DNA of 35,568 nt from Methylocystaceae bacterium. Lineage in GTDB: Bacteria; Pseudomonadota; Alphaproteobacteria; Rhizobiales; Beijerinckiaceae. Where the stretch lies: positions 1-35,568 of the forward strand of contig BJGJ01000015.1 of NCBI GenBank assembly GCA_014190435.1. Direction: 5' to 3'. Numbering within the stretch: position 1 is the first letter of the stretch; each line of letters starts with the position of its first letter. The notes below the pieces were generated by a model that was given only the letters and a program-made list of their open reading frames with translations, was not told the origin of the DNA and made no database searches. The position numbers were made by a program, and so were the translations under genes. This document shows, piece by piece, positions 5,378 through 27,503 of the stretch.

Positions 5378-5391
5378 CGGCGCAACATTGC

Positions 5392-6138: not shown

Positions 6139-6146
6139 CCTGCTTG

Positions 6147-6965: not shown

Positions 6966-6992
6966 CCAACACGTTCCTTAGATTGCTTAAAT

Positions 6993-8570: not shown

Positions 8571-10663
8571 TTACTGCGGCCAAGGATCTCCTTGGCGACG
8601 GCTACGACTTGCTCAGGTTCAAAACCAAACCTGCGCTGTAATTCTTTTAATGGCGCAGAAGCGCCAAACGTCTTCATGCCAATCACCCGGCCTTGAAAAC
8701 CAACATAGCGATCCCAGCCAAGCGTTGAGCCTTGCTCAACAGCAAGACGCGCGGTGATCGTCGGCGGGAAAACTTCGTCGCGATAAGCCTGGGGTTGATC
8801 TTCGAAAATATCCCAAGACGGCATAGAGACTGCGCGAGCACGAATGCCTTCCGCCTGCAGGGTTTTTTGCGCATCAAGAATGAGCGCAACTTCGCTGCCT
8901 GAAGCAATGAGAATAATTTCTGGCGCACCGCCAGATGCATCCGCCATGATATAAGCGCCCCGCGCAACGCCTGAGGCTGGAGCATAACGCGTGCGATCAA
9001 AAGTTGGTAAAGGCTGTCGTGAGAGAAAGAACGCCGCTGGCTGATGCCGCAATTGCGCGACATAGCGATAGGCCTCAACAACTTCATTGGCGTCAGCAGG
9101 ACGTAAAACGACGAGGCCAGGGACGGCGCGCAGAGAGATCAATTGCTCTACGGGTTGATGGGTTGGGCCGTCTTCACCATCACCCATTGCGTCATGAGTA
9201 AAGACAAAAATTGTCGGCAGCTCCATGAGTGCAGACAGACGTATAGCGGGCCGCGCGTAATCGCTGAAGATAGCGAAGGTCGCACCGAAAGCCCGTAGCT
9301 TGGAAAGCGAAAGTCCATTAACAATCGCTGCCATCGCATGTTCGCGAATGCCATAGTGAAGATTACGACCTGAAGGCGACTCAGGCTGAAAATCTCCAGC
9401 ACCCGAAAATTTCAGCGTTGTCTTATTAGAAGGCCCAAGATCGGCAGAGCCGCCTAAAAACCATGGTATCTTTTCCGCCAAAGCGTTCAGCGTCAGACCT
9501 GACGCGTCGCGTCCGGCAACACCTTTTGGATCGGCCGGAAAGCTCGGCAAGGCGCTATCCCACCCTTGCGGCAAATCACGCCGCTGCATTTGGTCAATTT
9601 CAAGCGCGAGCTGAGGAAAAGCCTTACAATAGGCGGCAAATAAATTTTCCCATTCGCTGCGCGCTTTGGCGCCGCGCGCGCCAACGCCATCGGCGAAACG
9701 TTTAGGCGTCTGCTCGGGCACTAAAAATTTAGCATCTTCTGGCCAGCCATAGGCGCGTTTAGCAAGGCGCACTTCTTCTTCGCCTAAGGGTTCACCATGC
9801 GCAGCTGGGGTATCAACCTTGTTGGGTGACCCATAACCGATATGACTATCGAGAATAATCAGCGTCGGCCGACCTGTTGTTTTACGGAAAATCGTCAACG
9901 CGTCTTCAATACGCGAGAGATCATTAGCATCGCCTACGCGCAACACATTCCAGCGATAGCCTAAGAAACGCGCAGCAACATCTTCTGTGAAGGTGATGCG
10001 CGTTTTTCCTTCAATGGTGATATGATTATTGTCGTAGATCCAGCATAGATTATCGAGCTCAAGATGTCCCGCGAGCGAAGCGGCTTCTGAACCGACGCCC
10101 TCCATCAAACATCCATCGCCGCAAATGGCGTAAATATTATAATTAAAGATTTCAAAGCCAGGCTGGTTGTAGCGACTGGCTAACCATTTCCGCGCCATCG
10201 CCATTCCGACGCTGGTCGCAATGCCTTGCCCAAGCGGTCCTGTTGTCGTTTCAACGCCAGAAACGAGGTGATATTCTGGATGACCGGGTGCCTTACTGTC
10301 AATTTGACGAAAGCGACGAATATCATCGAGCGTGACTGAAGGCTGACCGAGTATTTCATAGTCAGCGTTGACCGCGCGCGTGCCGGTTAAATATAACACC
10401 GACCACAACAACATAGATGCGTGGCCATTGGAGAGAACAAAACGATCACGATTTGGCCAGATTGGATCCATTGGGTCAAAAGACATGACCCGGTTCCAAA
10501 GCGTATAGACCAGCGGCGCCAGCGCCATGGGCGTACCCGGGTGACCCGACTTCGCCTGTTCAACAGCATCAATCGACAGCGTACGGATTGTATTAATCGC
10601 CAGTAGATCGAGTTCATCTGCGCTCATTTTATCCGATGGCGGCCACGGAGTCTCTACGCTCAT
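8567..10663 (-). CDS. tkt: transketolase
   Basis: Thiamine-diphosphate enzyme moving two-carbon units between pentose, tetrose and hexose phosphates. Visible landmarks are [20 protein letters not shown], the TPP/Mg motif [20 protein letters not shown] followed by [10 protein letters not shown], the segment [15 protein letters not shown], and catalytic Glu in [12 protein letters not shown]. The frame is open upstream to 10867, but the ATG at 10663 ([12 protein letters not shown], 698 residues) matches the family length. It lies four bases after the gnd stop with GGAG about ten bases upstream; the longer version would run backwards through gnd. Confidence 0.95.
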
Positions 10664-10667
10664 TAAA

Positions 10668-11687
10668 TCAAGACTCCGCTTTCTTTTCGAGATGGCCGCC
10701 AAATTCATAGCGCATGGCGGAGAGTATTTTATTGGCGAAATCCGCTTCACCGCGCGAACTAAATCGTTCATAAAGCGCGGCTGAAAGAACATGCGCCGGC
10801 ACGCCTTCATCAATAGCGGCTTTAATTGTCCAGCGGCCTTCTCCTGAATCGGAAACGCGACCTGCAAATTTTTTCAATCCCGGATCTTCAATCAAGGCTG
10901 ACGCAGTCAGATCCAGCAGCCAAGAGGCAATAACGCTGCCGCGACGCCAGACCTCAGTGATATCGGGTAGATTAAAATCATACAAATAATGTTCCGGATC
11001 GCGCAGCGGGGTTGTTTCAGCATCAATGACGCCGCCCTTCTTACCGACATTAGCCGCGTTCAAAACGCCTAAGCCTTCAGCGTAAGCCGCCATCACGCCA
11101 TATTCAATGCCATTATGCACCATCTTAACAAAATGTCCGCCGCCATGCTGACCGCAATGCAAATAGCCAAGCTCTGACGTGCCGCCTGCTTTTTCACGAC
11201 CCGGCGTTCGAGGTATATCGCCTCTGCCTGGTGCAAGCGTTGCAAAAATTGGATCAAGATGCTGCACAATGTTAGTTTCGCCGCCAATCATCATGCAATA
11301 GCCACGCTCTAATCCCCAAACGCCGCCGCTTGTGCCGACATCGACATAATGCACGCCTTTCGCCACAAGCTCTTTCGTGCGACGAATATCGTCGATGTAG
11401 TAAGAATTACCGCCATCGATCAAAATATCGCCCGCCTCAAGAAAGGGCAACAAATTCTCAATGACCTTATCCACGACGCCTGTTGGCACCATCATCCAAA
11501 TTGCGCGAGGCTTTGCGAGATTTTTTGCAAAATCTGCAAACGTTGTCGTTCCTGTCGCCCCTTGCTTTGCGAGCGTCTCAACTGCTTGCGCAGAACTATC
11601 ATAGACCACGCAATCATGCCCGCCTTTAAGCAAGCGAGACACCATATTTGCGCCCATCCGACCGAGGCCGATCATTCCTAACTGCAT
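10668..11687 (-). CDS. gnd: 6-phosphogluconate dehydrogenase, decarboxylating, short (NAD-type) form
   Basis: Oxidatively decarboxylates 6-phosphogluconate to ribulose-5-phosphate. The Rossmann motif GLGRMG is at residues 7-12. Substrate-binding segments are [22 protein letters not shown] and [18 protein letters not shown]. At 339 residues it belongs to the short class of about 300-340 residues (GntZ/GndA-like), rather than the long enzyme of about 470 residues found in enterobacteria. Members of the short class often prefer NAD+, but the cofactor is inferred, not shown. ATG at 11687 is preceded by GGAGG, three bases after the pgi stop. Confidence 0.93.
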
Positions 11688-11690
11688 GCG

Positions 11691-13349
11691 TCAGCCCTCC
11701 TTGGAGGTTGTTTTAAGTTTTCGATACCGCTGGATCAGCGCATTTGTTGAACTATCGTGATCAAGCTTGGGTTCGCTTGTACTTTCAAGCTGCGGCAGGA
11801 TCCTCTGCGCAAGAACTTTTCCGAGCTCAACGCCCCATTGATCGAAGGAGTCAATTTGCCAGATCACACCCTGTGTAAAGACGCTATGTTCATAAAGCGC
11901 AACAAGCTTACCCAACGCCGCAGGCGTTAACGCTTCCAACATCAACGTATTGGACGGACGATTGCCTTCAAACAACCGATGCGGCACCAGCCAATCTGGC
12001 GTGCCTTCCGCTTTTACTTCCTCAACCGTTTTGCCAAAAGCAAGCGCTTCCGTTTGGGCAAAGACGTTTGCCACTAGCATATCTTGATGTCGACCAAGCG
12101 GATTGAGATTGCACGCAAAGGCAATAAAATCACACGGGATTAAACGAGTGCCTTGATGGATCAATTGATAGAATGAATGCTGACCATTGGTCCCAGGCTC
12201 CCCCCAATAAATGGGTCCCGTATCATAGTCGACATGCGCGCCTGTAATCGTTACATGCTTGCCATTGCTCTCCATCGTGAGCTGCTGCAAATAGGCAGGG
12301 AAACGTTTGAGATATTGCTGATAAGGTAAAACTGCAACGGTTTGCGCGCCAAAAAAATTATTGTACCACAGAGACAACAGACCCATCAACGCAGGTAAAT
12401 TACGCTCAAAAGGAGCAGTACGGTAATGCTCATCCATTTCGTGGAAACCACTTAGCATGGCGCGGAAATTTTCCGGACCGATCGCTAACATGGTGGAGAG
12501 ACCAATGGCGGAGTCCATTGAATAACGACCGCCAACCCAATCCCAGAAGCCAAACATATTGGCTGTATCAATGCCAAATTTTGTTACTTCCACCGCATTG
12601 GTTGAAACAGCAACGAAATGCTTTGCAATACCGGCTTCATCGCCCTTCAGTTGCGCCATCATCCATGCACGCGCGCTTTGGGCATTAGCCATTGTTTCCA
12701 AGGTTGTAAAAGTCTTTGAGGAAACAATAAACAGTGTTTCCGCCGGATCGAGGTCGCGCACTGCTTCTGAAAAATCCGTGCCGTCAACATTAGACACAAA
12801 GCGAAACGTCATGGCGCGATCGCTATAATGCTTCAACGCCTCATAAGCCATGACGGGCCCAAGATCCGAGCCGCCAATACCAATATTAATTACATTGCAA
12901 ATACGTTTACCGGAATGGCCTTTCCAGTCGCCGCTGCGCACACGATTAGAAAAATCTGACATGCGATCGAGCACAGCATGAACGTCTGGAACGACATTTT
13001 GCCCCTCGTGCAGGATTGTTGCGTCTCGCGGCGCTCGCAACGCCGTATGGAGTACGGCGCGTTTTTCAGAAACATTGATTGCATCGCCCCGAAACATTGC
13101 GTCAATATGCGCACGTAATCCTGATTGTTGCGCAAGCTGCAACAACAGGCTTAGCGTTTCATCGGTAATGCGGTTTTTAGAATAATCGAGATAAATTCCC
13201 GCTGCTTCTAACGCGAATTTTTCGCCTCTTTTGGCATCTTGAGCAAATAGTTGTTTCAAATGAAGGGATTTTAGTTTTTGAAAATGCGCTTCCAGCTGCT
13301 TCCAGGCGGGAAGCTGACGCAAAGGCGCGCTTGCAGGCAAATTTGTCAT
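11691..13349 (-). CDS. pgi: glucose-6-phosphate isomerase
   Basis: Interconverts glucose-6-phosphate and fructose-6-phosphate. All active-site segments are present: [30 protein letters not shown], the [12 protein letters not shown] signature (the usual residue before SAIG is Trp; here Asp), catalytic Glu in TMESNGKHV near 359, His391 in [16 protein letters not shown], and the C-terminal Lys in [11 protein letters not shown]. At 552 residues it has normal length. The gene starts four bases after tal; elsewhere the two activities occur as a single fused Tal-Pgi protein, so the order is informative. Confidence 0.96.
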
Positions 13350-13353
13350 CCAT

Positions 13354-14430
13354 TTATCCCTTACGTAGCTCAGTCAATTTCGCTTCAATACAGCCAATAA
13401 GATCGTCCCAGGACTTCACAAAAGAGTCGGCACCTTCTTCTTGAAGTTTGAGCGCAAGCGCATCAAGATCAACACCAGATTTTTTAAAATTCGCCAGTAC
13501 GCTTTGGTGGTCTCCGCCATCTGGCGTCAAAGCGCCGGTTATTTTGCCGTGATCGGCAAAAGCGAGCAGCGTATTTTCCGGCATTGTGTTTACGGTGTAC
13601 GGAGCTGCCAACGCTTCTATATAAAGCGTATCTGAAGCCTTTGGATCCTTTGTTCCCGTGCTTGCATAGAGCAACCGCTGGGCGCGCGCGCCTTCGTTGG
13701 CTAAATGCTGAAAGCGAGCCGAGGCCAACAGATCTTGATAGGCGTGATAGGTTTGTTTTGCGACTGCAATACCCAATTGATTGGTCAAGTCTGCGCCGAC
13801 CTTACCCGCAACAGCGACATCCCACCGACTAATAAAGAGTGACGCGACCGATCCCACAGCCGGATTTAAGCCTGCGGCGACGCGGCGTTCGATTCCGCGC
13901 AAATAGGCCTCCGCAGCCGCTATATATTGCGCGCACGAGAATAATAAGGTGACATTGACAGGAATGCCGGCAAAGATAGCCGCTTCTATTGCCGGTAAGC
14001 CTGCAGGCGTACCGGGGATTTTAATAAAGAGATTAGGCCGCGCGGCGCGTTGATGTAAATCTTGCGCGGCAGCAAGCGTATTTTCTGTATCATTAGCAAG
14101 AAGCGGCGACACTTCAAGCGAAACCCAACCGTCAATCCCATCTGTGCGCTTAAAAATTGGCAGAAAGAGATCCGCTGCGCGCGTGATATCTGTCAGCGCA
14201 AGATCAAAGAAAAGATCCTCGGCTTTTTTATCGCGCTTGCTAGCGATATCTGCATCATAATCTACACTTTTGCTGATCGCATGATCGAAAATTGTCGGAT
14301 TAGAGGTCAGTCCCGTGACAGATAATTCATCAATATACCGACGCAACACGCCGCCATTGAGAAGTTCACGGGTAATATTGTCGAGCCAAAGGCTTTGGCC
14401 GACGTTATGTAGCGCCTTCGTGGAATTCAT
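13354..14430 (-). CDS. tal: transaldolase
   Basis: Transfers a dihydroxyacetone unit from sedoheptulose-7-phosphate to glyceraldehyde-3-phosphate. The Schiff-base lysine is in NLFIKIPGT (K137). The N-terminal segment [16 protein letters not shown] and the segment [10 protein letters not shown] are diagnostic. At 358 residues it fits the longer transaldolase subfamily of actinobacteria and alphaproteobacteria rather than the 317-residue TalB type. It is the first gene of the pentose-phosphate operon, so the operon promoter should lie in 14431-14823. I see only a weak minus-strand -10 candidate (CATAAT near 14511-14516) there. Confidence 0.94.
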
Positions 14431-14823
14431 CGCGTCGGCTCCAGTTTCGAAAAGATTAACGCGCTCTGCTCAAGATTAGGCCTTATACCGATTTTCTGAG
14501 CGCTTGGGATTATGACGGTTTCAAGTAAGTTAAGTCTTTGTCTCATTTACTTTCGGGGCAAATTAAGCCGCTTTTAGCGCAGGCCGCAAGTTAGGATTTA
14601 CTTTTATTGCTTATTTCTTTTTTCTTTCTACAAGAAACTCTTTAATGTGCTGATCTTGACCCATATCATCGCTCAATTAAAGATAGACAAGTAGACAAAC
14701 AGCGAAAATTGTCGCGCGGTTCTGTTCTTGACTATAAATTGCCTTAACAAGGCATAATCAAGCCCCACTTTTGAGCTTTTATCACAGCTCAAATCAATGC
14801 CGAGGTCTCTAAAAGGAAAGATC
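14431..14823. other. divergent control region between tal operon and pgm
   Basis: About 390 bases with no credible gene, serving as leader for both the eight-gene operon (leftward) and pgm (rightward). The best element is the pgm promoter candidate with an embedded inverted repeat at 14728-14758. Shared control of pgm and the operon would make biochemical sense but is inference. Confidence 0.55.
14728..14758 (+). promoter_or_regulatory. candidate pgm promoter with internal inverted repeat
   Basis: TTGACT (14728-14733) and CATAAT (14753-14758) are separated by 19 bases, close to sigma-70 consensus though two bases wide. Between them lies the inverted repeat TGCCTT-AAC-AAGGCA (14740-14754), overlapping the -10. 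That is a natural place for a repressor site. The ATG of pgm lies 66 bases downstream. Confidence 0.4.
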
Positions 14824-16485
14824 ATGCCCGAAAACGTCAGCCCACTTGCCGGCAAACCCGCCGAGGCGTCCTTGTTGGTAAACGTGCCCCGGCTATTGAC
14901 GGCTTATTATTCACTCACGCCAGATCCCTCAATCGCCACACAACGTGTGGCATTTGGCACATCCGGCCATCGCGGCTCCGCCTTCGACACTGCTTTTAAT
15001 GAAGCGCATATTCTAGCGATCACCCAAGCCATTTGTCTCCATCGTCATCGCAGCGGCATCACCGGACCTCTCTTTATTGGTATCGATACGCACGCCCTAT
15101 CAGAGCCTGCGCTCGTCAGCGCATTAGAAGTACTCATCGCCAATGATATTGATGTGATGATTGACGCGCGCAATGGCTATACGCCAACACCTGTTATTTC
15201 ACACGCAATTCTTACCTATAATAAAGACCGCAGCAGTGGGTTTGCAGATGGCATTGTTATTACGCCCTCGCATAATCCGCCTTCTGACGGTGGCTTCAAA
15301 TATAATCCCCCCAATGGTGGCCCAGCCGATACTGATGTTACCAGCTGGATTGAACGAACCGCCAATGATTTTTTAGCAAAAAATCTTGCCGGCGTTACGC
15401 GCATTCCTTACGCGCGCGCGCTCAAATCCGACCACCTTCATCGCCATGATTATATCGCTCATTATGTCCCAGATTTAATCAATGTCGTTGATTTGGACGC
15501 CATCCGCGGATCAGGGGTGAAGATTGGCATTGATCCGCTTGGCGGGGCTAGCGTTCACTTCTGGCAACCGATCATAGAGCGCTATGGCTTATCAGCAACA
15601 ATCGTCAATGAAGCGGTAGATCCTACTTTTCGCTTCATGACCGTGGACTGGGACGGCAAGATCCGCATGGATTGCTCATCGCCCTACGCCATGACCCGAT
15701 TGATCGCAATGGCCGATAAATTTGATGTTGCATTCGCCAATGACACAGACGCCGATCGACATGGTATTGTCACACGCTCAAACGGATTAATGAATCCAAA
15801 TCATTATCTCGCTGTTGCAATTTCTTACCTCTTCGATAATCGTCCACAATGGCGCGGCGAAAGCGCTGTTGGCAAAACTATTGTCAGTAGCAGCATCATT
15901 GACCGCGTCGCCACAAAGCTTGGACGTAAACTTATTGAAGTGCCCGTTGGCTTTAAATGGTTTGTTTCTGGCTTGATTGATGGGTCGCTTGGATTTGGCG
16001 GCGAAGAAAGCGCCGGCGCCTCATTCTTACGCCGCGACGGTTCTGTTTGGACAACAGATAAGGATGGATTAATTCCTAGTCTGCTTTCTGCTGAAATCAC
16101 TGCGCGAACAGGAAAAGATCCTGGCGAAATCTATCAAGACTTAACGCGCGAACTGGGCGCACCCTACTACGCCCGTATTGACGCGCCAGCGACGACGACA
16201 CAAAAAGAACAGCTTAAAGCGCTCACGCCAGATAAGGTTGGCATGAGAGAATTGGCTGGCGAAGCGATCACGCAAACACTCATTACTGCGCCCGGGAACG
16301 ACGTCGCTTTCGGCGGATTAAAAGTTGTAACTAAATCCAGCTGGTTTGCTGCAAGACCTTCTGGAACGGAGGAAATTTACAAACTTTACGCCGAGAGCTT
16401 TCAAAGCCAAACGCATCTCGAACAAGTCCAAAAAGAAGCGCAAGACTTTCTTTCTAGCGTTTTCAAAAATGCGCCCATCTCATAA
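14824..16485 (+). CDS. pgm: phosphoglucomutase (alpha-D-glucose-1,6-bisphosphate dependent)
   Basis: Interconverts alpha-glucose-1-phosphate and glucose-6-phosphate. It resembles E. coli Pgm along its length: [26 protein letters not shown], the phosphoserine loop [13 protein letters not shown], the metal loop NDTDADRHG, the sugar loop [10 protein letters not shown] and the phosphate-binding [16 protein letters not shown]. The frame opens at 14797, but ATG 14824 ([18 protein letters not shown], 553 residues) has AAGGA seven bases upstream and matches the family start. It links the product of the nearby glucan phosphorylase to Zwf and Pgi. Its end overlaps the convergent GH3 gene by six bases. 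Confidence 0.96.
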
Positions 16486-18621
16486 AACCAAATCAAAACT
16501 GTCTTTTAAAAGCCCGACGGGATCAGCGCTTTGACCCACATAAATCTCAAAGCGCCCCGCCTCTAAGGTCAAATCTAACTCTGGGCCGACAAAGGCTAAA
16601 TCCTCAACAGCAAGAACGAAAGAAAGCTGTTCTTCTGCGCCTTGACCGACAAATACTTTTTTCACGCCTTTCAGCTCCAACACCGGACGCGCGAGACTAG
16701 CGACAAGATCGTGAATAAAGAAAAATAGCGTGGCTTCGCCAGGGCGCGCGCCGTCATTACGCACACGTACGCTCACCTCAACATTATCGTTATGCTTCAC
16801 AAGCGGCGTTAAACAAGCAAAATCTAGCAGTGAAAATGCGCTGTAAGAAAGACCATGGCCAAAAGGAAATTGAGGAGAGGCGAGCGTATCAATATAGCAA
16901 CTTGAATAATGCACTCCTATTTGCGTTGGACGTCCTGTTGCGCGTTGATTATAAAAAATTGGCGTCTGCCCAACCGCACGCGGCCATGAAATCGGTAGTC
17001 GTCCAGTTGGATTGATTACGCCAAATAAAATATCGGCCAGCGCATGACCCGCTTCACTCCCCAATTGCCATGTCGCCAAGACTGCGGTGGCGCGCTCAAA
17101 TAACCACGGCGCTGCAAGCGGACGGCCGGATGTTAAGACAACGACGACAGGCTTACCCAACGCAAAAACCGCTTCAGCTAACGCGCGTTGCGCGCCAGGT
17201 AAGCCAATATCAGCACGGCTTGCCGCCTCCCCGCTCATTTCTGCTGTTTCGCCAAGACACAGTAAAATGACTTCCGCCTTGCGACAGGCCGCCAGCGCAA
17301 GCTCAATGCCTGAAACATCCTGCGATAGCCCATCAACGCCTATAACAAGATCAAGATGACAGTTTGGTGCCGCTTTCCGTACGCCTTCAAAGAAGCTGAC
17401 TGTTTGTTCTTCATGACCTGCTGAGGCCCAAGATCCCAACATCGCGCCAACATCGTCGACAAAGGGTCCAATCATTGCAAGACAAATCAAATCAGGCGCA
17501 AGTGGCAACAGCTGATCTTTATTTGTCAAAAGAACAATTGCCCTCTGCGCCGCTTCTCGCGCTAGCGCACGACGCTGATCTTTACCTTTTTGCGCGTTGT
17601 ATGAGACAGAGCTGCCGCGCCGATAGGGATCTTTAAAAAGACCTAAGCGCTCTTTGAGGCGCAGAACACGACGCACGCTATTATCAATATCATTCAATGA
17701 GACGAGACCGCGATCAACAGCGATCGGCAATCCTTCAATAAAGGCATTACTCGTCATATCGATATCAACGCCAGCATTAAACGCAAGCACTGCCGCCTCA
17801 AGGAGATCATGAGCGACGCCATGATTAAGTAACTCACCAACGGCATTAAAATCGCTAATAACAACGCCCTCAAATCCAAGACGCTGACGCAAAATATCTT
17901 TTAATAAATATCGATTGGCTGTCATAGGCTGGCCCGCAATATCATTGAAGGCTGGCATGATTGCAGCAACGCCCGCGGCGATCGCAGCAGCAAAAGGCGG
18001 GAGATAGATTTCTAATAAGGTTCTTTCCGACACATCCGCGGAGGCATATTCGCGTCCAGCTGTCACGGCGCCATAGGCGCCAAAATGCTTGGCTGTCGCG
18101 GCAAGCGAGGTAGCAAAACTCAAATCCTCCCCTTGAAAGCCACGCGTTTTTGCAACGCCAATTTGTCTCGCAAGCCAGGTATCTTCGCCAGGCCCTTCAA
18201 CCATCCGTCCCCAGCGGGCGTCACGCGCAATATCCAACATTGGCGCAAAAGTTAATGCGACGCCTTCTTCACTGGCCTCTTGCGCGGCCGCTTGGGCTGT
18301 TTTCTGCCATAAGACGGGATTAAACGCACAGGCCTCTGCTAAGGGCGTTGGAAAAATCACGCGATGGCCATGGATGATGTCGTGACAGAGCAATAAGGGA
18401 ATGCCCAATCGACTTTCATCCACAGCCAAGCGCTGCACGCGGGCAACTTCCTCACGCCCCCATATATTTAAAAGACTGCCAATATGCCCTGCACGAATTA
18501 AGTCATCCACCTCTTGAAGCGCACCCGGACCTGTGACAGCGCGAAAGGAGGCGACCATATTTAATTGGCCGACTTTTTCTTCAAGCGTCATTGCATCCAG
18601 CAAAACCTCAAGCTGATCCAT
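16480..18621 (-). CDS. GH3 family beta-glucosidase, cytoplasmic
   Basis: A 713-residue glycoside hydrolase family 3 protein with the N-terminal barrel, the alpha/beta sandwich ([22 protein letters not shown]) and a C-terminal fibronectin-type domain ([21 protein letters not shown]). The catalytic nucleophile is Asp257 in [14 protein letters not shown], and substrate-binding KHFGAYGA is present. There is no signal peptide (starts [20 protein letters not shown]), unlike periplasmic BglX. Family 3 is broad, so linkage is not fixed by sequence. A GH3 sophorose-active beta-glucosidase is encoded beside 1,2-beta-oligoglucan phosphorylase in Listeria innocua, and the same pairing here supports action on sophorose and short beta-1,2-glucans. 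Confidence 0.9.
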
Positions 18622-19069
18622 TATTTTTTTACTTTCACAACACAGAAGATAGGTTAGAGCGAATTTATCCCATAGTCTTGATCAAAGCTAATCTAAAAAA
18701 AATTCTTATAGGGCAGAAATAATGTTTCACTTTCACGCTCTTAGCGCTTTAAGAGGTCATTAGAAATAAGACTCATTTAGTTCATTTATCACCGACGGCG
18801 CAATTTATCCCTAGCGGCTCCCTTTCTTTTCATAAAACCGTCTTACAGGGACAAAATTTGATTAACCCGATAAAAAAGCGGGGAATTCTCTCCACACCCC
18901 TTCCCTGAACCTTCAAGAGAGACCTATTACTTTTCCAAGCGAGCGATAAGTAAGCTGAAGATGGCTTTTAGGCTTTTCATCCTATTAGGAGTATAAAGCG
19001 GCTCTCCTTAATGCGAACAGCCTCTCTCAATCGGCTGGGAAAAAAGCCAGAAGGAACGGATTGGTTTTT
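18622..19069. other. divergent spacer between GH3 and ABC-protein genes
   Basis: About 450 bases without a gene; it must hold promoters for both neighbours. I found no pair of promoter boxes with good spacing and no strong hairpin. AAGGAAC at 19051-19057 is the probable ribosome-binding site of the plus-strand gene. Confidence 0.45.
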
Positions 19070-20899
19070 ATGGCGCAGCAGTCCAATAATACGACCAAAA
19101 ACACGGCCAGCCTAACAGCCTCGAGTCATGATGGCTTCACCGCCCAAATCTTAGGCATGATCAATGTGCTTTGGACATCGTCTGAGCGCAATAAAATCAT
19201 CCAACTTATCTTCGCGCTTGTTGGGGTCATTGCTGGCACAGCCTATGCCCAACTGCAACTCAATGCCTGGAATAAGCCGTTCTATAATGCGCTGGCAAAT
19301 AAAAATTTAACAATTTTTATACAGCAACTCGGCGTCTTTGCTTTGCTCGCGAGCATTTTGCTCGTGCTAAATGTTTTACAAATGCGGCTTAATCAAACAT
19401 CAAAAGTGATTTTGCGAGAAAGCCTGGTCGATGATCTTATTTCAGATTGGCTCGCGCCAAGACGCGCCTTTCTTCTTTCTTATGCTGGCGAAATTGGCGC
19501 AAATCCAGATCAACGCATTCATGAAGACGCCAAACATCTAACTGAGCTCACAACAGACCTCAGTATTGGCCTACTGCAATCGACCTTGCTATTATTAAGT
19601 TTTATCGGTGTATTATGGTCGCTTTCAGGCAGAGATGTCCTTGAGATCGGCGGCCACGTTCTCTTTACACAGCCTCCAGGCTATATGGTTTGGTATGCAC
19701 TTTTATACGCTGGCGTCGCCTCTTATATCAGCTGGCGCGTGGGCCGGCCTCTTATTGATCTTAATGCAGAGCGCTATGCGCATGAAGCTGAGATGCGCTT
19801 TGCGCTCGTACATGTGAATGAAGAAATTGATGGTGTTACGCTTAATGGTGGTGAGAGGGATGAACAGGCGCGCATTACAACGATCTTTGGAACTGTGCTT
19901 GAAGTCTCACGGCGCATCGTCAAGGCCGTCACACGACTGACCTGGGTTACCGCTGGTTACGGTTGGTTTACGATTGTTGCGCCGATATTGGTTGCTGCGC
20001 CAGCCTATTTTCAAGGTTCAATGAGTTTTGGTGAATTGATGGTGGTGGTTGGTGCTTTTAACCAAGTACAACAATCGCTTCGCTGGTTTGTTGATAATTT
20101 TGCCAATATTGCTGATTGGCGCGCAACGATGTTGCGTGTGGCGAGCTTTAGACTCACTATGTTAAAAATGGACGCGTTAGCGCAAAATGAAAATCGGATC
20201 GAATTTGAAGATTCAACTGATGCGTCAATTCATATCGATAATCTAGAAATTGCAACCGCCACAGGCTCCCTTAAATTGAGCCAGCAGCATATTGAAATGA
20301 AGCCAGGAGAAAGGATTCTGATTACAGGAGAGAATGGTGAAGAAAAATCACTTGCCTTTCGGGTTTTTGGCGGACTGTGGCCCTGGGGAAGCGGTAAAAT
20401 TACGCGCCCGCCCTCGGATGCGATTATGTTCCTGCCCATGCGCCCTTATATCCCACCGGGAACATTACGCGCCGCCATCTGCTATCCGCACTCTCATGAG
20501 ATCTATGACGCACCGACAATTGACAAAGCCTTTCACGACGTCGGCTTAGATCATCTGCGACCCTTTATTGATACGACAGACCGATGGGATCGTCGTCTAA
20601 ATTATAGCGAAAAGCAGTGTCTCATGTTTGTGCGCATCTTATTGCATCGGCCTCAATGGGTTGTCTCTGACGGCGCATTGGTAGCCTTGGTTGAATCGAA
20701 CGCATTGATTAAATCGATCTGCGAAAAAGAATTATCTGATATTGGCGTTATTGGCGTGAGAGATGGAGATGATAAAAATCTCTTTTATACGCAAAAATTT
20801 CACCTCACCTTGGATCGTCAGGGTAATTCCTTTGATCTCGCAGCAGCCTGCGGCAGCAGTCAAGCGAGCCAACACACCTCAACAACCATTTCGGCATAA
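19070..20899 (+). CDS. BacA/BclA (SbmA/YddA)-like ABC half-transporter with degenerate ATPase domain
   Basis: A 609-residue protein with a membrane domain of about five to six helices (roughly residues 40-330) of the SbmA/BacA-YddA type, including NAWNKPFYNAL and the EEIDGVTLNGGERDE region, fused to a C-terminal ABC domain (about 385-590). The ABC domain has lost its machinery. Walker A reads GENGEEKS (420-427, third Gly replaced by Glu). The signature reads LNYSEKQ (510-516) instead of LSxGEQQ. Walker B reads VVSDGA with Gly535 where the catalytic Glu belongs. The H-loop His is replaced (GVRD, Val563). The fold is still recognisable (FGGLWPWGSGKI, RPYIPPGTLRAAICYP). The start is ATG 19070; TTG 19061 is an alternative closer to AAGGAAC. 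The gene is 17 bases upstream of the GH144 gene, so co-transcription is likely. Relatives import peptides; a role with glucans would be inferred only from the neighbours. Confidence 0.85.
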   Translation: MAQQSNNTTKNTASLTASSHDGFTAQILGMINVLWTSSERNKIIQLIFALVGVIAGTAYAQLQLNAWNKPFYNALANKNLTIFIQQLGVFALLASILLVLNVLQMRLNQTSKVILRESLVDDLISDWLAPRRAFLLSYAGEIGANPDQRIHEDAKHLTELTTDLSIGLLQSTLLLLSFIGVLWSLSGRDVLEIGGHVLFTQPPGYMVWYALLYAGVASYISWRVGRPLIDLNAERYAHEAEMRFALVHVNEEIDGVTLNGGERDEQARITTIFGTVLEVSRRIVKAVTRLTWVTAGYGWFTIVAPILVAAPAYFQGSMSFGELMVVVGAFNQVQQSLRWFVDNFANIADWRATMLRVASFRLTMLKMDALAQNENRIEFEDSTDASIHIDNLEIATATGSLKLSQQHIEMKPGERILITGENGEEKSLAFRVFGGLWPWGSGKITRPPSDAIMFLPMRPYIPPGTLRAAICYPHSHEIYDAPTIDKAFHDVGLDHLRPFIDTTDRWDRRLNYSEKQCLMFVRILLHRPQWVVSDGALVALVESNALIKSICEKELSDIGVIGVRDGDDKNLFYTQKFHLTLDRQGNSFDLAAACGSSQASQHTSTTISA

Positions 20900-20916
20900 T
20901 TGAAAGGCTTTTACAA

Positions 20917-22179
20917 ATGAAGGCTTCATCTGATTTACAAAAAAATCTTTCTGACGAAGCGTTGCTTGATCTCGTACAACGACAGACTTTTCGTTATTTC
21001 TGGGAAGGAGCGCATCCCGTCAGCGGACTCGCACGCGATCGTAGTAATCGTTTTACGGATCCCAGTGACGACGCCATTGCTGTCGGCGGATCTGGATTTG
21101 GTATTATGACGATTATTGTCGCCTGCGAACGGGGATGGGTGCGGCGGGAAGAGGCTGTTGAGCGGTTAAACGCCATGCTTAATGTATTAGATCGCTCGAC
21201 TTGTTATCATGGCATGTATCCTCATTTCATGAATGGTGCCACGGGTGCGACTATTCCCTTTAGCCGCAAAGACGATGGTGGCGATGTTGTTGAAACCTCG
21301 TTCCTCTTCCAAGGCCTGTTATGCGCGCGCGCTTATTTTGACCGCGATACGGCTGAAGAATTGCGCCTGCGTCAGCGCATCACCTATCTTTGGGAAGAAG
21401 TGGAATGGAATTGGTATACGCAAGGCGGCCGCACTGTCTTAACTTGGCACTGGAGCCCCACTAATGGCTTTGCGCTTAATCATGACATTCGCGGCTGGAA
21501 TGAATGTCTCATAACCTATGTGCTTGCAGCTTCTGCACCGCGTTATGGCATCCCTGCACAAGCCTATCATGAAGGTTTTACCCAAGGACGTCAGTTTCTC
21601 AATAAACGTAGCTTTGAAGGTATTGAGCTGCCACTGGGTTCGGATTGGGGCGGCCCACTTTTCCTCGCGCATTTTTCATTTGGCAGCATTGACCCACACG
21701 GGTTGAGCGACGCCTATGCAGACTATTGGCACCAAAACGTCAATCATACGCTGATTAATTACGCCTACTGCGTGCGTAATCCAAAATCTTATAAGGGCTA
21801 TGGTCCAAAGTGTTGGGGCCTAAGTGCTGGCGATGCTGTCAATGGGTATGCGGCGAGTGCACCAGATAATGATTTAGGCGTTATTAATCCAAGCGCAGCC
21901 CTTTCAAGTTTCTGCTATGCGCCGGATCAAGCGATGGCGGCGCTACGCCATTTTTATGAAGATTTGGGCGATCGACTTTGGGGCCGTTTTGGTTTTGTCG
22001 ATGGATTTAGTCCTCAGCATGATTGGTATGCGGATACGTTCCTGGCAATTAGCCAGGCACCGATCATCATCATGATTGAAAATTATCGTTCTGGCTTGCT
22101 TTGGAAATTATTCATGGGCATTCCTGAAATTCAAGCAGGCATGAAGAAACTTGGATTTAAGAGTCCCACTCTCTCGTGA
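20917..22179 (+). CDS. GH144-type endo-beta-1,2-glucanase candidate (PF10091 glucoamylase-like)
   Basis: A 420-residue all-alpha toroid protein. The opening LLDLVQRQTFRYFWEGAHPVSGLARDRS, the middle WSPTNGFALNHDIRGWNECL and the end FVDGFSPQHDWYADTFLAISQAPIIIMIENYRSGLLWKLFM are typical of PF10091 proteins. This family includes GH144 endo-beta-1,2-glucanases (SGL) and is related to the transglycosylase domain of cyclic beta-1,2-glucan synthase. GH144 enzymes release sophorooligosaccharides from linear beta-1,2-glucan. There is no signal peptide (starts MKASSDLQKNLSDE), whereas characterised bacterial SGLs that feed on external glucan are usually exported. The ribosome-binding AAAGG precedes ATG 20917. 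The stop overlaps the GTG of the GH15 gene (GTGA), so the two are translationally coupled. Activity is inferred from family and from the GH94/GH3 partners. Confidence 0.8.
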   Translation: MKASSDLQKNLSDEALLDLVQRQTFRYFWEGAHPVSGLARDRSNRFTDPSDDAIAVGGSGFGIMTIIVACERGWVRREEAVERLNAMLNVLDRSTCYHGMYPHFMNGATGATIPFSRKDDGGDVVETSFLFQGLLCARAYFDRDTAEELRLRQRITYLWEEVEWNWYTQGGRTVLTWHWSPTNGFALNHDIRGWNECLITYVLAASAPRYGIPAQAYHEGFTQGRQFLNKRSFEGIELPLGSDWGGPLFLAHFSFGSIDPHGLSDAYADYWHQNVNHTLINYAYCVRNPKSYKGYGPKCWGLSAGDAVNGYAASAPDNDLGVINPSAALSSFCYAPDQAMAALRHFYEDLGDRLWGRFGFVDGFSPQHDWYADTFLAISQAPIIIMIENYRSGLLWKLFMGIPEIQAGMKKLGFKSPTLS

Positions 22180-23594
22180 GCCTGTTAGACGACTGGATAA
22201 ATAAGGAAGCGCAATATGCCGCAATCGCCATGCTGCGCGCCATCTCGGCGACAGATCTTGTAAAAGAACGCCCAGGCTTTGGACAAAGGATTATTCCTCA
22301 TGTGGGGTCAGTACTCGCCTCGCCCGTCCGGGCCGCTTATGATCCCGACCCAGATTATTTCTTTCATTGGTTTCGCGATTCGGCCGTTGTCATTGACGCC
22401 TTGCGCGTCGCCTTTAGCCAAGGGTTGATAGAAGAAAAAATAGCGCTGACGAAATTAAAAGAGTTTGTCGATTTCACCCGCGCTCTCCAAAACTTAGATG
22501 GGACAATATTTCTTCGTCATCAGAATTATGTAGAGCTAACACAACCAACTTTTTTACAATATTTACGCCCCCAAGAAGAAATCGCGCAGCTCTGCAACAC
22601 TTCTGTTTTTGGAGAAACACGCGTTAATCCTGATGGAAAATTTGACATTACCCGCTGGCCGCGCCCTCAAACAGATGGACCTGCACTATTAGTGCTAACC
22701 TTGCTGCGGTGGCTGGAGGAAGACGCCAAAATAGAAGATGCGTTGCGTAGCGATATGGAGCATCTCCTAATTGATAATCTCGCTTTTACCAGCCGTCATG
22801 CGCAGGAAATAAGCTTTGATATTTGGGAAGAAGAAAAGGGCTTTCATTATTATACTCAGCTTATTCAATGCGAAGCGCTAGAAAAAGGCGCTCACTGGCT
22901 GATGTTTAAAGGTGATCGCGCACAAGCAAATAGTTATCTTGCTATGCGAGATGGTTTATCTTCTCACCTTGAAAATTATTGGGACGCCAAGCTTGGCTAT
23001 CTGCGATCACGTATTGATGTTGAGCAAGGAAATAACGATAAATGGTTGGATATTTCTGTTATTTTTGCGGTTATTCATGCGGCGCGTCTTTCTGGCGCGC
23101 ACAGCGTGTTGGATGTAAAAGTTCAAGCAACAGTAACAGCGCTGGAAGAATTATTTGAAGCTGATTATGGGATTAATCAACGGCGTCCAGATGATCATGG
23201 CCTGGCTTTTGGACGCTATAAAAATGACGCTTATTATAGCGGGGGTGCCTATTTCTTCTCGACTCTTGCAGCTGCGGAATTTTATTTCAGATTAGCAATT
23301 GCGCTCCAAAAGGGCGGAACACTGGATATTACATCTGAGAATGCACGATTTTGCGCACGACTTGGCGTTACAAAATGTTCACCTCTACAAACCCAAGTTA
23401 ATGCAGCGCGCATGCGTGGCAACGCCATCTTGCGCATGGTTCAGGCCTATACACCTGAGAGCGGCGACCTTTCCGAGCAGTTCGACCAAAAAACCGGCGA
23501 ACAAACATCGGCAAAACATCTTACCTGGAGCTATGGAGCCTTTATCACGGCTTATGCTCAACGCCGCCAAGCCGCTCAGGCCACTCAAGAGTAA
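22176..23594 (+). CDS. GH15 glucoamylase-like glucosidase, cytoplasmic
   Basis: A 472-residue (alpha/alpha)6 enzyme of family 15. The substrate segment PDPDYFFHWFRDSAVVIDAL matches the PDYFYTWTRDSA motif of glucoamylases. The catalytic acid lies in FDIWEEEKGFHYYT (Glu218) and the catalytic base in DLSEQFDQKTGE (Glu434). LTWSYGAFITAY closes the domain. Both carboxylates are kept, so an inverting exo-glucosidase is expected. Known GH15 enzymes act on alpha-linkages (starch, isomaltose, trehalose, dextran), which does not fit a purely beta-1,2 system. There is no signal peptide. The start is GTG 22176, overlapping the GH144 stop. The last 50 bases overlap the convergent GH94 gene. Confidence 0.88.
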   Translation: MSLLDDWINKEAQYAAIAMLRAISATDLVKERPGFGQRIIPHVGSVLASPVRAAYDPDPDYFFHWFRDSAVVIDALRVAFSQGLIEEKIALTKLKEFVDFTRALQNLDGTIFLRHQNYVELTQPTFLQYLRPQEEIAQLCNTSVFGETRVNPDGKFDITRWPRPQTDGPALLVLTLLRWLEEDAKIEDALRSDMEHLLIDNLAFTSRHAQEISFDIWEEEKGFHYYTQLIQCEALEKGAHWLMFKGDRAQANSYLAMRDGLSSHLENYWDAKLGYLRSRIDVEQGNNDKWLDISVIFAVIHAARLSGAHSVLDVKVQATVTALEELFEADYGINQRRPDDHGLAFGRYKNDAYYSGGAYFFSTLAAAEFYFRLAIALQKGGTLDITSENARFCARLGVTKCSPLQTQVNAARMRGNAILRMVQAYTPESGDLSEQFDQKTGEQTSAKHLTWSYGAFITAYAQRRQAAQATQE

Positions 23595-26500
23595 AACCAA
23601 GCGCGCTCGATAATGTCGGCTTGACCACTCTCTCCCCAAAATAACGCCGAACGCCAAGCGCTTGTTGGATTAAAATATTGGTGTAAACGCCTGGCCCGCT
23701 GGAATAAATCCGCCACCCCCCATCAAAGGCGATTGTATTGTTTTTTACGCGCACCCAGTCAGCGCTTGCGTGATAACGATCTCTAAAAGCGGCGTCACTC
23801 GAGCTAAAATAAGTATTGCGCTGACGTAATGACGCCGTCGGCAGACGGTCTGTGACAGCAATTGGGTTCACGATGAGTAGGGCTTCTCTCAAAGCTTGTG
23901 ACTCATTAAGCGCGCTCATTGCCTCGCCATAGCGTAGATGCGAATGCGTATACATGAGACCAATTTCACGCCCAAAGAAGGCTGATGATTCTGCACGTCT
24001 GAAAATTTTCTCCAATCCACCATGATAAGCAATTGGCTTATCCATCAGCCGCGCGCCATCAACAAATAAAAGATGATTGCGAATAAGATCGAGATGATGG
24101 CGTGATTGCTCCGGTGTGAAGAGTTCGCCAAGAATCGCCTGAGTCATTGGGATCAAGGAATAGAAAACGCCCGTATGCGTATCGCTTGGATGAATAAGTA
24201 AGTCTGGAGCGCCGCCTTCCGGTTTGAAGACAGCATAACCAGCAACAGTTCCGTCATGCATTAGATATTTATTGAAATCCGCCCGCATATCAGCAGCAAG
24301 TTGTTTGAATTCTTCAGCCTGACTGATGATGCCTTTGCGCTCTAAAATAACTGCATATCGACAAAGCTGCTGATAGAGTAGCGCCACAGTCCAACTGCTA
24401 ACCATCCAATCGCGTTTTGTTGTGTCGACAGGCTGAAGAGCATCGTTCCAATCGCCATTGCCATAGCGGATTAAAGAAGTTCCAGTGATAAATCGCTCGC
24501 GCACGGTGGCGATGAGCTTATCAATATGTTTAGAGATCGGCTCCAGACGCTCTGTCTTTTCAAAATTATCTTCGCGCCGCCAGGCGACTGCTTCATCGAG
24601 AAAATTAACATCGCCCGTTGCTTCGATATAATCGCATAAGGCCTTTAACGGCCAAACGATAATATCCCCGTGCGACTGCTTATCTTGGATGAAAGAATAA
24701 GGCTCCAACATAAACCACTGGGGCCAATCACCTTGTGCTTCATATTGTTGAGCAAAAATGATCTTGAGAATTTGTTTGACGGGTTCGTCATGTTCAAAAG
24801 AGAGAAACAGCTCAACTGGCCCTTGGCAAACATCGCGTGTACCCCATGCGGCTCCCGTATATTGTTCAAGGCCATGTGGTACAGTCAGGTGAATGATTGC
24901 GTCATGCGCCAGCCAAGGCAACATGGTATCAAGCGCAGCCGCCTCAGCGATTAGCTGGGCGTCAAGACTTGAGCTTTTAATCCGCGCGCCGCGCGTAATA
25001 TCTTGCCAATAGGAATCAGTCTTCGCTAATAGGCTCTTGTCTTCCAGAGGCTGGGCATATTTATCAGCAAGCACACGCGCCTGCATGGCGTCTGTCATTG
25101 ATCCGGCAACAGCAAAAACAAAATTTGTTGTTTTTGATGTGCGGATTGTCGCAAAAGCTCCGCTACGCCGCTTCCCGTCCGCATAAAGCAATTCATCGCC
25201 GCCAATTGCTTCCGCTATATGAGGCGTGCTTGTAACTAAATGATAGGCAGCCTGTGGATAATGTCCTCCCCAGAGCGAGTCAGCAGCAGGCGTGAACACA
25301 AAGCGCTTATGTTGGGCGTCGATCTCAACGTTTGCAGCCTGTCCATATTCACGTTCACCTAACACAAGATGACCAAAAATAAGGAAGCGACAGGCTTCAC
25401 CCTCAACACTGATATGCCATTGCAGGGCCGCGTCTTCGCTTGAGGCGGTCGCTGAGACACAAATGGTTTGATCTTTAAACTGATAAATCCAACGACAATC
25501 ATTCAAGCCGATTTCGAAAGCCGATGGCACGCTCAAAAGCTGCCAGCCATCTTTCAGATCAACAAGCAAGCGCATTCCGCTGGCGCGAGTAATATTGTAG
25601 GGATCGCGTGATACGGAAAAGAGCTTATGGAAAGACGTATTGCCGATCGTGAGCTGGGCGCTGAAAACGCCATGCATCCAGCAGGTAGTGCAAAGCGTTG
25701 CTTCATCCGGTAAGATCGCCTGCCCCGAACGCAGCAAAGCACCATGACGTCGCGCAACGATCCGATCCTTATCCCCTAGGACAACATGACGCTTATGCGA
25801 TACGCCTGGCGTAAAGAAAGAAAGAAGTTTTCCTTCAACTTTTTCCTCATGCAATCGATTGGGGTAGCGCTCCACGATTTGGGCAGTCTCCAAGGGCTCT
25901 ACAATTGCAACAGGAGCATCCTGCAAAAGACTATAGGTTGGATGCGATAGAACGATTGAGGCTGGCGTAAAATTCTTTGCCGTCTCCGCAATCCCTTCCA
26001 GCAACGCTAGATCAGCGTGAGAGGAGGCAGCAGGATGATCAGGTTCAAATGCGCTAAAGAAAGTCCAGCATGTTGTTTCACCTGGCTCGAGTGTTATCGC
26101 AGTTGATTGTAACGCGGCACAGGCAGTTTCATATTGCAGTCGTTCGGAGGGCAAGTTCACGCCGTAAGCGCCTGCGATAAAATCCGCGTCTCTCAGATCT
26201 GACCCCATCAATTGACGAAAATCAGTAGCAAAGCCAACAGCGCCTTCTAAACAGCCATGCGCAACCCAGGGGAAGGTGCCACCTTGAGATTGATTTTGCC
26301 GCGCCATCAAGATGGTTTTCATGTGCGGATGTTGAGCGATAAGATGATCAATATATTGGCTCGCGTAAGCTTCATTGTTCATTAAAAAACCAGCGTCGCC
26401 TAATCCAAGATCTTGAATAAAGACTGCGTCGCAGGGCGCTGCTAATACGCCCCGATTGGTGAGCTCAACCCGCCAGAGAAGATGATTTTTCTCAGGATGA

Positions 26501-26841
26501 AGCGACAGCGTGACCTGGTAACGCATTCCCTGCTCTTCGCCAGCCCAAACAAGATGATGTGTAGAAGCGCCAAATTGACCTCGCGCTTTTTGCCCAACAA
26601 GCGGGATACAGGCTGGCGCGTCCCCACCAATGCGAATAAAAATACCCGCCATGCCGCCCTCAATGGGCAAGGCGAGGATCTGATTAATCATAATCGAACG
26701 ATTGTCTTTTGAATGCTCAATCGCAAAGATTGTACTATTTGGGAGAACGCTGATCGAAAGACCAGAGGTATTGGAAATCCGGGTAAGATGAAGATCGTCG
26801 CGTCGTGGGGTCTTCACGATCTCATTAGCCGAATGCATCAT
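23545..26841 (-). CDS. GH94 phosphorylase, 1,2-beta-oligoglucan phosphorylase type
   Basis: A roughly 1098-residue GH94 protein. The general-acid segment is RYGNGDWNDALQPV (Asp800 in my numbering), followed by the C-terminal VYTNILIQQALGVRRYFGERVVKPTLSS, which closes the phosphate-site side of the barrel. Cellobiose and cellodextrin phosphorylases are about 800-990 residues, and cyclic-glucan synthases are far longer and carry a GT84 domain. About 1100 residues with a long beta-rich N-terminal region matches 1,2-beta-oligoglucan phosphorylase (SOGP) of Listeria and Lachnoclostridium. The reaction would be sophorooligosaccharide plus phosphate to alpha-glucose-1-phosphate and a shortened chain. 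I chose ATG 26841 (GGAAGGA upstream); 26859 and 26838 are alternatives. There is no signal peptide. Specificity is by length, context and family only. Confidence 0.82.
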   Translation of the reverse strand: MMHSANEIVKTPRRDDLHLTRISNTSGLSISVLPNSTIFAIEHSKDNRSIMINQILALPIEGGMAGIFIRIGGDAPACIPLVGQKARGQFGASTHHLVWAGEEQGMRYQVTLSLHPEKNHLLWRVELTNRGVLAAPCDAVFIQDLGLGDAGFLMNNEAYASQYIDHLIAQHPHMKTILMARQNQSQGGTFPWVAHGCLEGAVGFATDFRQLMGSDLRDADFIAGAYGVNLPSERLQYETACAALQSTAITLEPGETTCWTFFSAFEPDHPAASSHADLALLEGIAETAKNFTPASIVLSHPTYSLLQDAPVAIVEPLETAQIVERYPNRLHEEKVEGKLLSFFTPGVSHKRHVVLGDKDRIVARRHGALLRSGQAILPDEATLCTTCWMHGVFSAQLTIGNTSFHKLFSVSRDPYNITRASGMRLLVDLKDGWQLLSVPSAFEIGLNDCRWIYQFKDQTICVSATASSEDAALQWHISVEGEACRFLIFGHLVLGEREYGQAANVEIDAQHKRFVFTPAADSLWGGHYPQAAYHLVTSTPHIAEAIGGDELLYADGKRRSGAFATIRTSKTTNFVFAVAGSMTDAMQARVLADKYAQPLEDKSLLAKTDSYWQDITRGARIKSSSLDAQLIAEAAALDTMLPWLAHDAIIHLTVPHGLEQYTGAAWGTRDVCQGPVELFLSFEHDEPVKQILKIIFAQQYEAQGDWPQWFMLEPYSFIQDKQSHGDIIVWPLKALCDYIEATGDVNFLDEAVAWRREDNFEKTERLEPISKHIDKLIATVRERFITGTSLIRYGNGDWNDALQPVDTTKRDWMVSSWTVALLYQQLCRYAVILERKGIISQAEEFKQLAADMRADFNKYLMHDGTVAGYAVFKPEGGAPDLLIHPSDTHTGVFYSLIPMTQAILGELFTPEQSRHHLDLIRNHLLFVDGARLMDKPIAYHGGLEKIFRRAESSAFFGREIGLMYTHSHLRYGEAMSALNESQALREALLIVNPIAVTDRLPTASLRQRNTYFSSSDAAFRDRYHASADWVRVKNNTIAFDGGWRIYSSGPGVYTNILIQQALGVRRYFGERVVKPTLSSALGFTLEWPERLGGVEHKP

Positions 26842-27503
26842 CCTTATTCCTTCCCGCATCTTATAAAAACAATCAGCTTACCTAAAGGCGGCAAGCTTGG
26901 TTTCGTCTATAAGGCTTAGTTAACGACGATCCCATGACAAAGAACGTCGTTCAAGAGGGTATTATGCATTGACCAAAGACTTCCGGAATTTTTGGGATTT
27001 TAGGATTGATCCTTAAAAAATCACGGCGGTTTAGTCCTCTCTAAGCGCCAGACTATATATCTACTGCAAGGGTGCCTAAACTGCAAAGGAAATCAAGAGA
27101 AAGATCCGGGAGCCTTTGAAACAAAGTTGGAAAAGACTGAATAAATTTATTGGAGTGAGCAAAACTTAAAGCTACTGTTCTCAACAAAAAAACAAAAGCC
27201 ATCGCTGATAAAGATGCAAGGCGAGGGTGTGATTTGACTGATAATAAGGAAAAGCTATTTTTAGCTTAAAACATATCAAAGCGTCTGAGCGGCCACAATC
27301 CTCGCGTAAGGGCAAAAAGCAAGCAAAGCTGGAATTGCAAAGAGCGTCGCCAGAGGCTTTGAATATCAACATAGGAGTGTCAGTTTCAATTGCGGTGAAA
27401 GCCTGAATTTCTCATGCATAACAGCCTATCCTTAGTGGCGCAGAGAGAAGAATTATTGCACAAATGTCTTGACGCGTGATTTGCTTCAAGAGAATTCAAA
27501 AAA
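26842..27503. other. spacer between phosphorylase and cyclase genes
   Basis: About 660 bases without a credible gene and the start of the AT-richer right part of the window. It carries the 5' regions of the leftward GH94 gene and the rightward cyclase gene. A weak inverted repeat (AACGACG/CGTCGTT, 26922-26951) is the only structure I saw. I identify no promoter with confidence. Confidence 0.45.

Follow-up and report, generated by a model that had tools for sequence, protein, structure and literature searches.

The question raised by this locus is which of its genes form a functional unit and what that unit does. It lies on a stretch of 35,568 nucleotides, hereafter the window, which is contig BJGJ01000015.1 (C15) of a Methylocystaceae bacterium (assembly GCA_014190435.1; 2.16 Mb in 167 contigs, 66% complete), and an earlier note, made from the sequence alone, had read it as a complete beta-1,2-glucan phosphorolysis route leading into a pentose-phosphate operon. 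What proved to be conserved is a beta-1,2-glucan cassette, most likely cytosolic, that includes a BacA/ExsE-type transporter, and not the pentose-phosphate join. We propose that this catabolic cassette imports, and thus recycles, periplasmic glucans through its own transporter, a reading to which we give a probability of roughly 55%, with transport inferred and the enzymatic activities predicted at the family level. The genes concerned are the following:

19061..20899, plus strand: SbmA/BacA/Rv1819c-like (ExsE-type) ABC protein with a membrane domain and a degenerate nucleotide-binding domain (PF06472, PF05992, PDB 6tqe); likely start at ATG 19070, from conservation with locus L115
20917..22179, plus strand: predicted GH144 endo-beta-1,2-glucanase without signal peptide (PF10091 9e-71; CpSGL 5gzh 4e-145)
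22176..23594, plus strand: predicted GH15 inverting alpha-glucosidase without signal peptide (PF00723 7e-48; glucoamylases 2vn4, 1agm)
23545..26859, minus strand: 1,2-beta-oligoglucan phosphorylase (SOGP) of family GH94, 1104 aa (SOGP_N PF21958 2e-64, SOGP_2nd PF21250 3e-52; LpSOGP 5h3z 2e-182)
16480..18621, minus strand: GH3 beta-glucosidase of BglX type without signal peptide (PF00933 5e-66, PF01915 3e-49; PDB relatives including Lin1840)
18622..19060, no strand: intergenic region between GH3 and transporter, probably a shared promoter region (gene layout; alignment with L115)
14797..16485, plus strand: alpha-phosphoglucomutase, Pgm (TIGR01132 above cut-off)

Transporter, GH144 and GH15 form a three-gene unit (17 bases separate transporter and GH144, and GH144 overlaps GH15 by 4), which sits between the divergent GH3 gene and the SOGP gene, the latter convergent with GH15 and overlapping it by 50 bases. 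The gene families listed by the earlier note (GH144, GH94, GH3, Pgm, zwf, pgl, gnd, tkt, tal, pgi and rpe) were all confirmed by Pfam and NCBIfam, and its assignments of the GH94, GH144 and Pgm enzymes held as well; it had omitted the transporter, GH15 and the lack of signal peptides.

Beside the two SOGP-specific domains, the GH94 protein carries PF17167 (1e-8), and its best solved relative is LpSOGP, aligned over residues 53-1087. Thirteen of 14 catalytic or ligand positions of LpSOGP are identical in the window protein, G623 being replaced by Thr, as in 78 of 84 aligned SOGPs; its prediction as an SOGP, and not a cellobiose or cellodextrin phosphorylase, is thus supported. The catalytic acid D760 and the subsite residues of LpSOGP are named in PMC5309861. 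Pgm is assigned to the alpha type, with 907.8 bits to TIGR01132 and a cut-off of 778.05. The GH144 protein keeps all six CpSGL positions compared, namely E211, F268 and Y330 together with D135, D139 and E142, and membership in the endo-beta-1,2-glucanase family is supported. The first three of these residues are named in PMC12102758, and an exo, sophorose-releasing type exists among GH144 homologues according to PMC11842490. The GH3 protein matches BglX-type enzymes broadly, Lin1840 among them, and reaches 645 bits to the NCBIfam BglX model (cut-off 666). In the GH15 protein, E218 and E434, invariant in four of four rows, align with the glucoamylase general acid and base, E179 and E400 of A. 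awamori, and a structure model of medium quality (mean pLDDT 65) gave six significant fold matches, all of them glucoamylases.

The conservation of this arrangement was studied with a transporter profile (A1) made from 14 transporters and run on 249 genomes drawn evenly from the order, where up to five candidates per genome were scored and all counts are lower bounds. Transporters were accepted at 569 bits or more (54 matches in 45 genomes, weaker matches being excluded) and GH144 at E below 1e-40 (50 matches in 46 genomes). A GH144 gene lies within 3 kb of a transporter in 26 of the 50 matches, from 26 genomes of nine families, against an expectation of about 0.05 for genomes of 5 Mb. GH3 stands alongside in 16 of these 26 linked loci, GH15 in 12 and SOGP in the same stretch in six (five from family f31, the sixth being the window itself); some linked stretches stop at contig ends. 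Transporter and GH15 are regarded as the conserved partners of GH144. In addition, all 22 SOGP genomes carry GH144. Beyond the sampled genomes, among SOGP loci that were the best 80 of 287, Aureimonas leprariae (L031) has the same set with no GH3 match, and a gammaproteobacterial metagenome-assembled genome (L037) has all five genes. The composition varies: three loci (L024, L025, L028) have transporter and SOGP with no GH144 in the fetched DNA, a Methylosinus plasmid carries transporter, GH15 and SOGP without GH144, and the 24 unlinked GH144 matches include families f11 and f18 (GH144 with GH3) and f24 (neither GH3 nor a PF06472 transporter). In most fetched loci of f11 and f18 (L200, L203-L207) a PF06472 transporter of another kind is present, and the two that were tested score as having a normal ABC_tran domain. 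On plasmid pGW6_1 of Methylocystis rosea (L258, 14001-18781 and 27229-29770) the transporter-GH144-GH15 unit recurs with GH15 split into two open reading frames (ORFs), and the nearby SOGP is annotated as cellobiose phosphorylase.

The cellular location of the enzymes was judged from the maximum 12-residue hydropathy before the conserved region, a measure that differs from a SignalP-like prediction. The N-termini of GH144, GH15, GH3 and SOGP in the window have no hydrophobic stretch, and the same holds for 36 of 36 transporter-linked GH144 ORFs (maximum hydropathy at most 1.22). Of the four OpgG control loci, three had values of 2.09-2.32 and the fourth had no ORF above 1.2. Among GH15 proteins, values above 1.6 occur only in L105 (the second fragment of a split gene) and in L107 and L031 (ORFs begun far upstream), and the unlinked GH144 of L210 has a Tat-like N-terminus with a hydropathy of 1.87. 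The transporter-linked enzymes are therefore most likely cytosolic, judging by these N-termini. Since GH144, GH15 and GH3 are without signal peptides, breakdown would take place in the cytosol and the glucan would have to enter whole, which makes the transport of intact glucan the central step of the proposed route.

In this route, the BacA/ExsE-type protein would carry intact beta-1,2-glucan across from the periplasm to the cytosol; this glucan is most likely the osmoregulated periplasmic glucan (OPG) that the cell itself makes, either linear or closed by an alpha-1,6 linkage. GH144 would then cut it to sophoro-oligosaccharides, of which those of at least three units would be phosphorolysed by SOGP to alpha-glucose 1-phosphate (alpha-G1P), GH3 would split the leftover sophorose, and Pgm, at the family level, would convert alpha-G1P to glucose 6-phosphate (G6P). 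GH15 may take off alpha-linked glucose at which the beta-specific enzymes are halted, for example at the alpha-1,6 closure. Glucans of this closed kind are made by the alphaproteobacterium Cereibacter and by Ralstonia and Xanthomonas (PMC11842490), so that such a task is plausible for GH15; its action on the closure of cyclic OPG is a hypothesis drawn from gene context. A Glk-type glucokinase (PF02685) was not found in the window's genome (G000) or in its relatives G008 and G020, ROK kinases lying outside this search, and the glucose released by GH3 and GH15 would therefore need another kinase.

The source of the glucan is suggested by the distribution of OpgG/MdoG (PF04349), which is present in all 37 listed members of the window's genus (the window's genome included) and in 135 of the 249 order genomes. 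All 26 genomes with a linked transporter and GH144 carry it, compared with 109 of the 223 others, and the eight GH144 genomes without OpgG/MdoG have no linked transporter in any case. This co-occurrence points to the cell's own OPG as the substrate, and it tells against scavenging, in which the same cassette would serve as a nutritional island for glucans of other bacteria, such as OPG or cyclic glucans of lysed neighbours. We regard scavenging as unlikely, though it is the best placed of the alternatives: cytosolic enzymes would fit either glucan source, cassette genes are found on plasmids in Methylocystis rosea and Methylosinus, and the distribution within the genus is patchy, with GH144 family matches (including those with cyclic glucan synthase only) in 15 of the 37 genomes and SOGP in eight; on the other hand, no gene for outer-membrane uptake was seen in the window. 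As a separate observation, one genome has an OpgG/MdoG gene about 2 kb from GH144 (G219:C227:25020-29187).

The transporter itself has PF06472 (2e-30) and PF05992 (1e-19) in its membrane domain, followed by a C-terminal nucleotide-binding domain, and its best solved relative is Rv1819c/BacA (6tqe, E 6e-54). A homologue with 45% identity on S. meliloti pSymB, which is probably ExsE, has exsH and the genes of a PAS-domain protein and of a response regulator in its vicinity. The structure model of the window protein (mean pLDDT 55) was too poor for a fold search. The polar cavity of Rv1819c/BacA measures about 7700 A3, and its cargoes are unrelated hydrophilic compounds (PMC10960864). That the cargo of the window transporter is beta-1,2-glucan, as well as the direction and energy source of its transport, is inferred, and in the open-access literature, as far as its text was available, we found no paper tying an SbmA/BacA-type transporter to beta-1,2-glucan.

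Several points weigh against glucan import and recycling by this cassette. The Fisher test on the OpgG contrast (5e-8) ignores phylogeny, and 12 of the 20 GH144 genomes without a linked transporter also have OpgG. GH15 is missing from 14 of the 26 linked loci and SOGP from the stretch in 20 of them, while GH15 stands beside the transporter without a close GH144 in L103 and L259. A preference of the GH3 enzyme for sophorose is not readable from its sequence matches. Given its loss of ATPase motifs (see below), the window transporter may be inactive or regulatory. Finally, the BacA group is described as polyspecific and mycobacterial BacA of the M. marinum type as moving its substrate both ways (PMC10960864), and ExsE as belonging to a long-chain fatty-acid transporter family (PMC12003926).

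The last two descriptions also speak for a second alternative, that the transporter is an exporter or a carrier of lipids or peptides and that it stands near GH144 because of envelope-glucan maturation or common regulation, the substrate of GH144 being glucans present in the cytosol. Consistent with this, L114 has GH144 next to a cyclic glucan synthase and no transporter there. SOGP, GH3 and Pgm are catabolic, however, and we know of no large cytosolic pool of OpgGH-type OPG, which we count against this explanation; we consider it improbable, somewhat more so than scavenging.

The idea that the enzymatic route and the pentose-phosphate operon together make up the unit that matters, with NAD(P)H production as its purpose, is very improbable, since only 5 of 118 other GH144/SOGP loci (fetched DNA of at least 15 kb) have a pentose-phosphate or pgm gene, the gene or its arrangement differs in each of them, and the join is missing from the best transporter-GH144 examples of the nine families. 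Thus, of what the earlier note had proposed, the route from beta-1,2-glucan through G1P to G6P stands at the family level, and its join to the operon as a conserved functional unit was rejected. The operon, a neighbour and not a conserved part of the cassette, comprises:

4688..14430, minus strand: pentose-phosphate operon tal-pgi-gnd-tkt-zwf-HAD-pgl-rpe
13354-14430, minus strand: tal
11691-13349, minus strand: pgi
10668-11687, minus strand: gnd
about 8567-10666, minus strand: tkt
6993-8570, minus strand: zwf
6147-6965, minus strand: HAD
5392-6138, minus strand: pgl
4688-5377, minus strand: rpe

In favour of the join, pgm touches GH3 in the window and tal comes directly after, and the five loci with such neighbours are L025 (tkt), L031 (zwf), L103 (tkt and tal), L114 (rpe and pgm) and L208 (gnd), where a rough estimate gives two to three expected by chance. 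Moreover, pgm adjoins GH3 in G008 (L115), whose contig ends there. In L103 (3906-11988, genome G026) the transporter-GH15 pair stands beside tal and tkt, and a distant GH144-like gene (31%) and a GH39 come after it. In L114 (7107-19891, genome G034) a GH144 that has no signal peptide is flanked by rpe and by a cyclic glucan synthase of 2974 aa, with pgm beyond.

The transporter of the proposed import route raises a question of its own, namely how it is energized. An intact ATPase site was defined by Walker A GxxxxGK[ST] and a catalytic Glu in Walker B; the window transporter reads GENGEEKS and SDG at these sites and so departs from an ATP-driven ABC protein, and it also departs from the SbmA-like peptide transporters (SLiPTs), which have no nucleotide-binding domain, as it retains one. 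Among 55 homologues scored, both motifs were kept in 28, one was lost in 11 and both in 16, of which 11 are in GH144 loci, three have SOGP alone as a cassette neighbour and two (L143, L117) belong to no such cassette. A single membrane-domain tree, several of whose branches are weak, gave six changes by Fitch parsimony, and eight losses when loss was taken as irreversible and branches below 80% were collapsed. Between the window and G008, dN/dS was 0.063 for the dead domain and 0.036 for the membrane domain (dS about 1), and the nucleotide-binding domain was less constrained than the membrane part in seven of seven pairs, yet always far below 1, although synonymous distance is near saturation in the L024/L025 pair. 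The nucleotide-binding domain is thus under purifying selection with its ATPase motifs lost, in the window's lineage and in other branches, and the low dN/dS argues that the dead domain is kept as structure.

SLiPTs have been proposed to arise from YddA-like ABC transporters by domain loss (PMC13316013). Motif decay with the domain kept resembles this proposed route from an ABC transporter to proton-driven SbmA, but differs in that the domain is retained while its site decays. The glutamate ladder was compared in a single alignment of low identity, where the window transporter has three of six Glu and one Asp, four positions are alike in most intact and degenerate members, and YddA shows Glu at E287, contrary to PMC13316013. 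No gain of acidic ladder residues was seen in the ATPase-dead branch, dead and intact members being alike at these columns. An intact partner is a further possibility: in L214 an intact copy stands in tandem with a degenerate one, and G008, G166 and G261 each have one more distant family member (360-438 bits) with which a heterodimer may form, whereas G133 and G096 (f13, degenerate copy) gave no second family member at E 1e-30. Seven loci had at first indicated that a dead ATPase goes together with a neighbouring SOGP, but as a general rule this was discarded: f31 has SOGP in the cassette and retains GK[ST] and DE, and in Methylosinus the transporter next to SOGP is intact. Putting these observations together, one may speculate, and we do so with considerable doubt, that the ExsE-type branch is a dedicated importer of whole beta-1,2-glucan that feeds cytosolic OPG recycling and has become ATP-independent in several branches including that of the window, where the site decayed and the domain was kept, which would make it a living intermediate between ABC transporters and proton-driven SbmA.

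Compared with known systems, the enzymes of the cassette are of known kinds, and what is new is their combination with a BacA/ExsE-type transporter. Listeria innocua lin1839-lin1840 likewise uses SOGP and GH3 on intracellular sophoro-oligosaccharides (PMC4757417, PMC11842490); it imports these by a binding-protein ABC importer, whereas the window has a BacA/ExsE-type protein, a predicted cytosolic GH144 and GH15. GH144 clusters of Chitinophaga, Bacteroidota and Xanthomonas (CpSGL, XcSGL) share the acidic residues of the window GH144, but XcSGL has a signal peptide (PMC12102758) and the window protein, predicted to be cytosolic, does not. A cytosolic location as such is no novelty for a beta-1,2-glucanase, because PgSGL1 and PgSGL2, characterised glucanases of that clan, are also without signal peptide (PMC12102758). 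SbmA/BacA, BclA, YddA, ExsE and Rv1819c have the PF06472/PF05992 membrane domain in common with the window transporter; the members studied carry peptides, cobalamin and other small hydrophilic compounds, while the window transporter is linked to beta-glucan hydrolases and its branch, unlike the known transporters of the SbmA/BacA group, keeps a nucleotide-binding domain from which Walker A and B are gone. The OpgG/OpgD/OpgH system, from which the substrate presumably comes, assembles and trims OPG in the periplasm, in contrast to the cytosolic breakdown proposed here, and the available open-access literature on it yielded no cytosolic OPG breakdown route.

By tying an ExsE/YddA-type transporter to GH144, SOGP, GH3 and GH15, the cassette makes both OPG breakdown and the substrate of the transporter directly testable in non-pathogenic methanotrophs and their relatives, YddA being called "of unknown function" in PMC13316013. 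In addition, the repeated loss of Walker motifs in a group where most members keep them provides a test set for the change from ABC to secondary transporter, a question raised in 2026 (PMC13316013).

Outside the cassette, a HAMP-domain adenylate/guanylate cyclase gene (27504-29126) adjoins SOGP, and from this gene onward the GC content of the window falls from about 48% to 38-41%. A search for pmoA covered 28 members of the genus and matched 20 of them, with no match in the window's genome or in its relatives G008 (98% complete) and G020, both of which have loci of 48-49% GC. These three genomes of the window's clade (G000, G008, G020) are AT-rich and 1.6-2.2 Mb in size, inside a pmoA-bearing Methylocystis-like genus, and the clade is possibly a reduced, non-methanotrophic branch.

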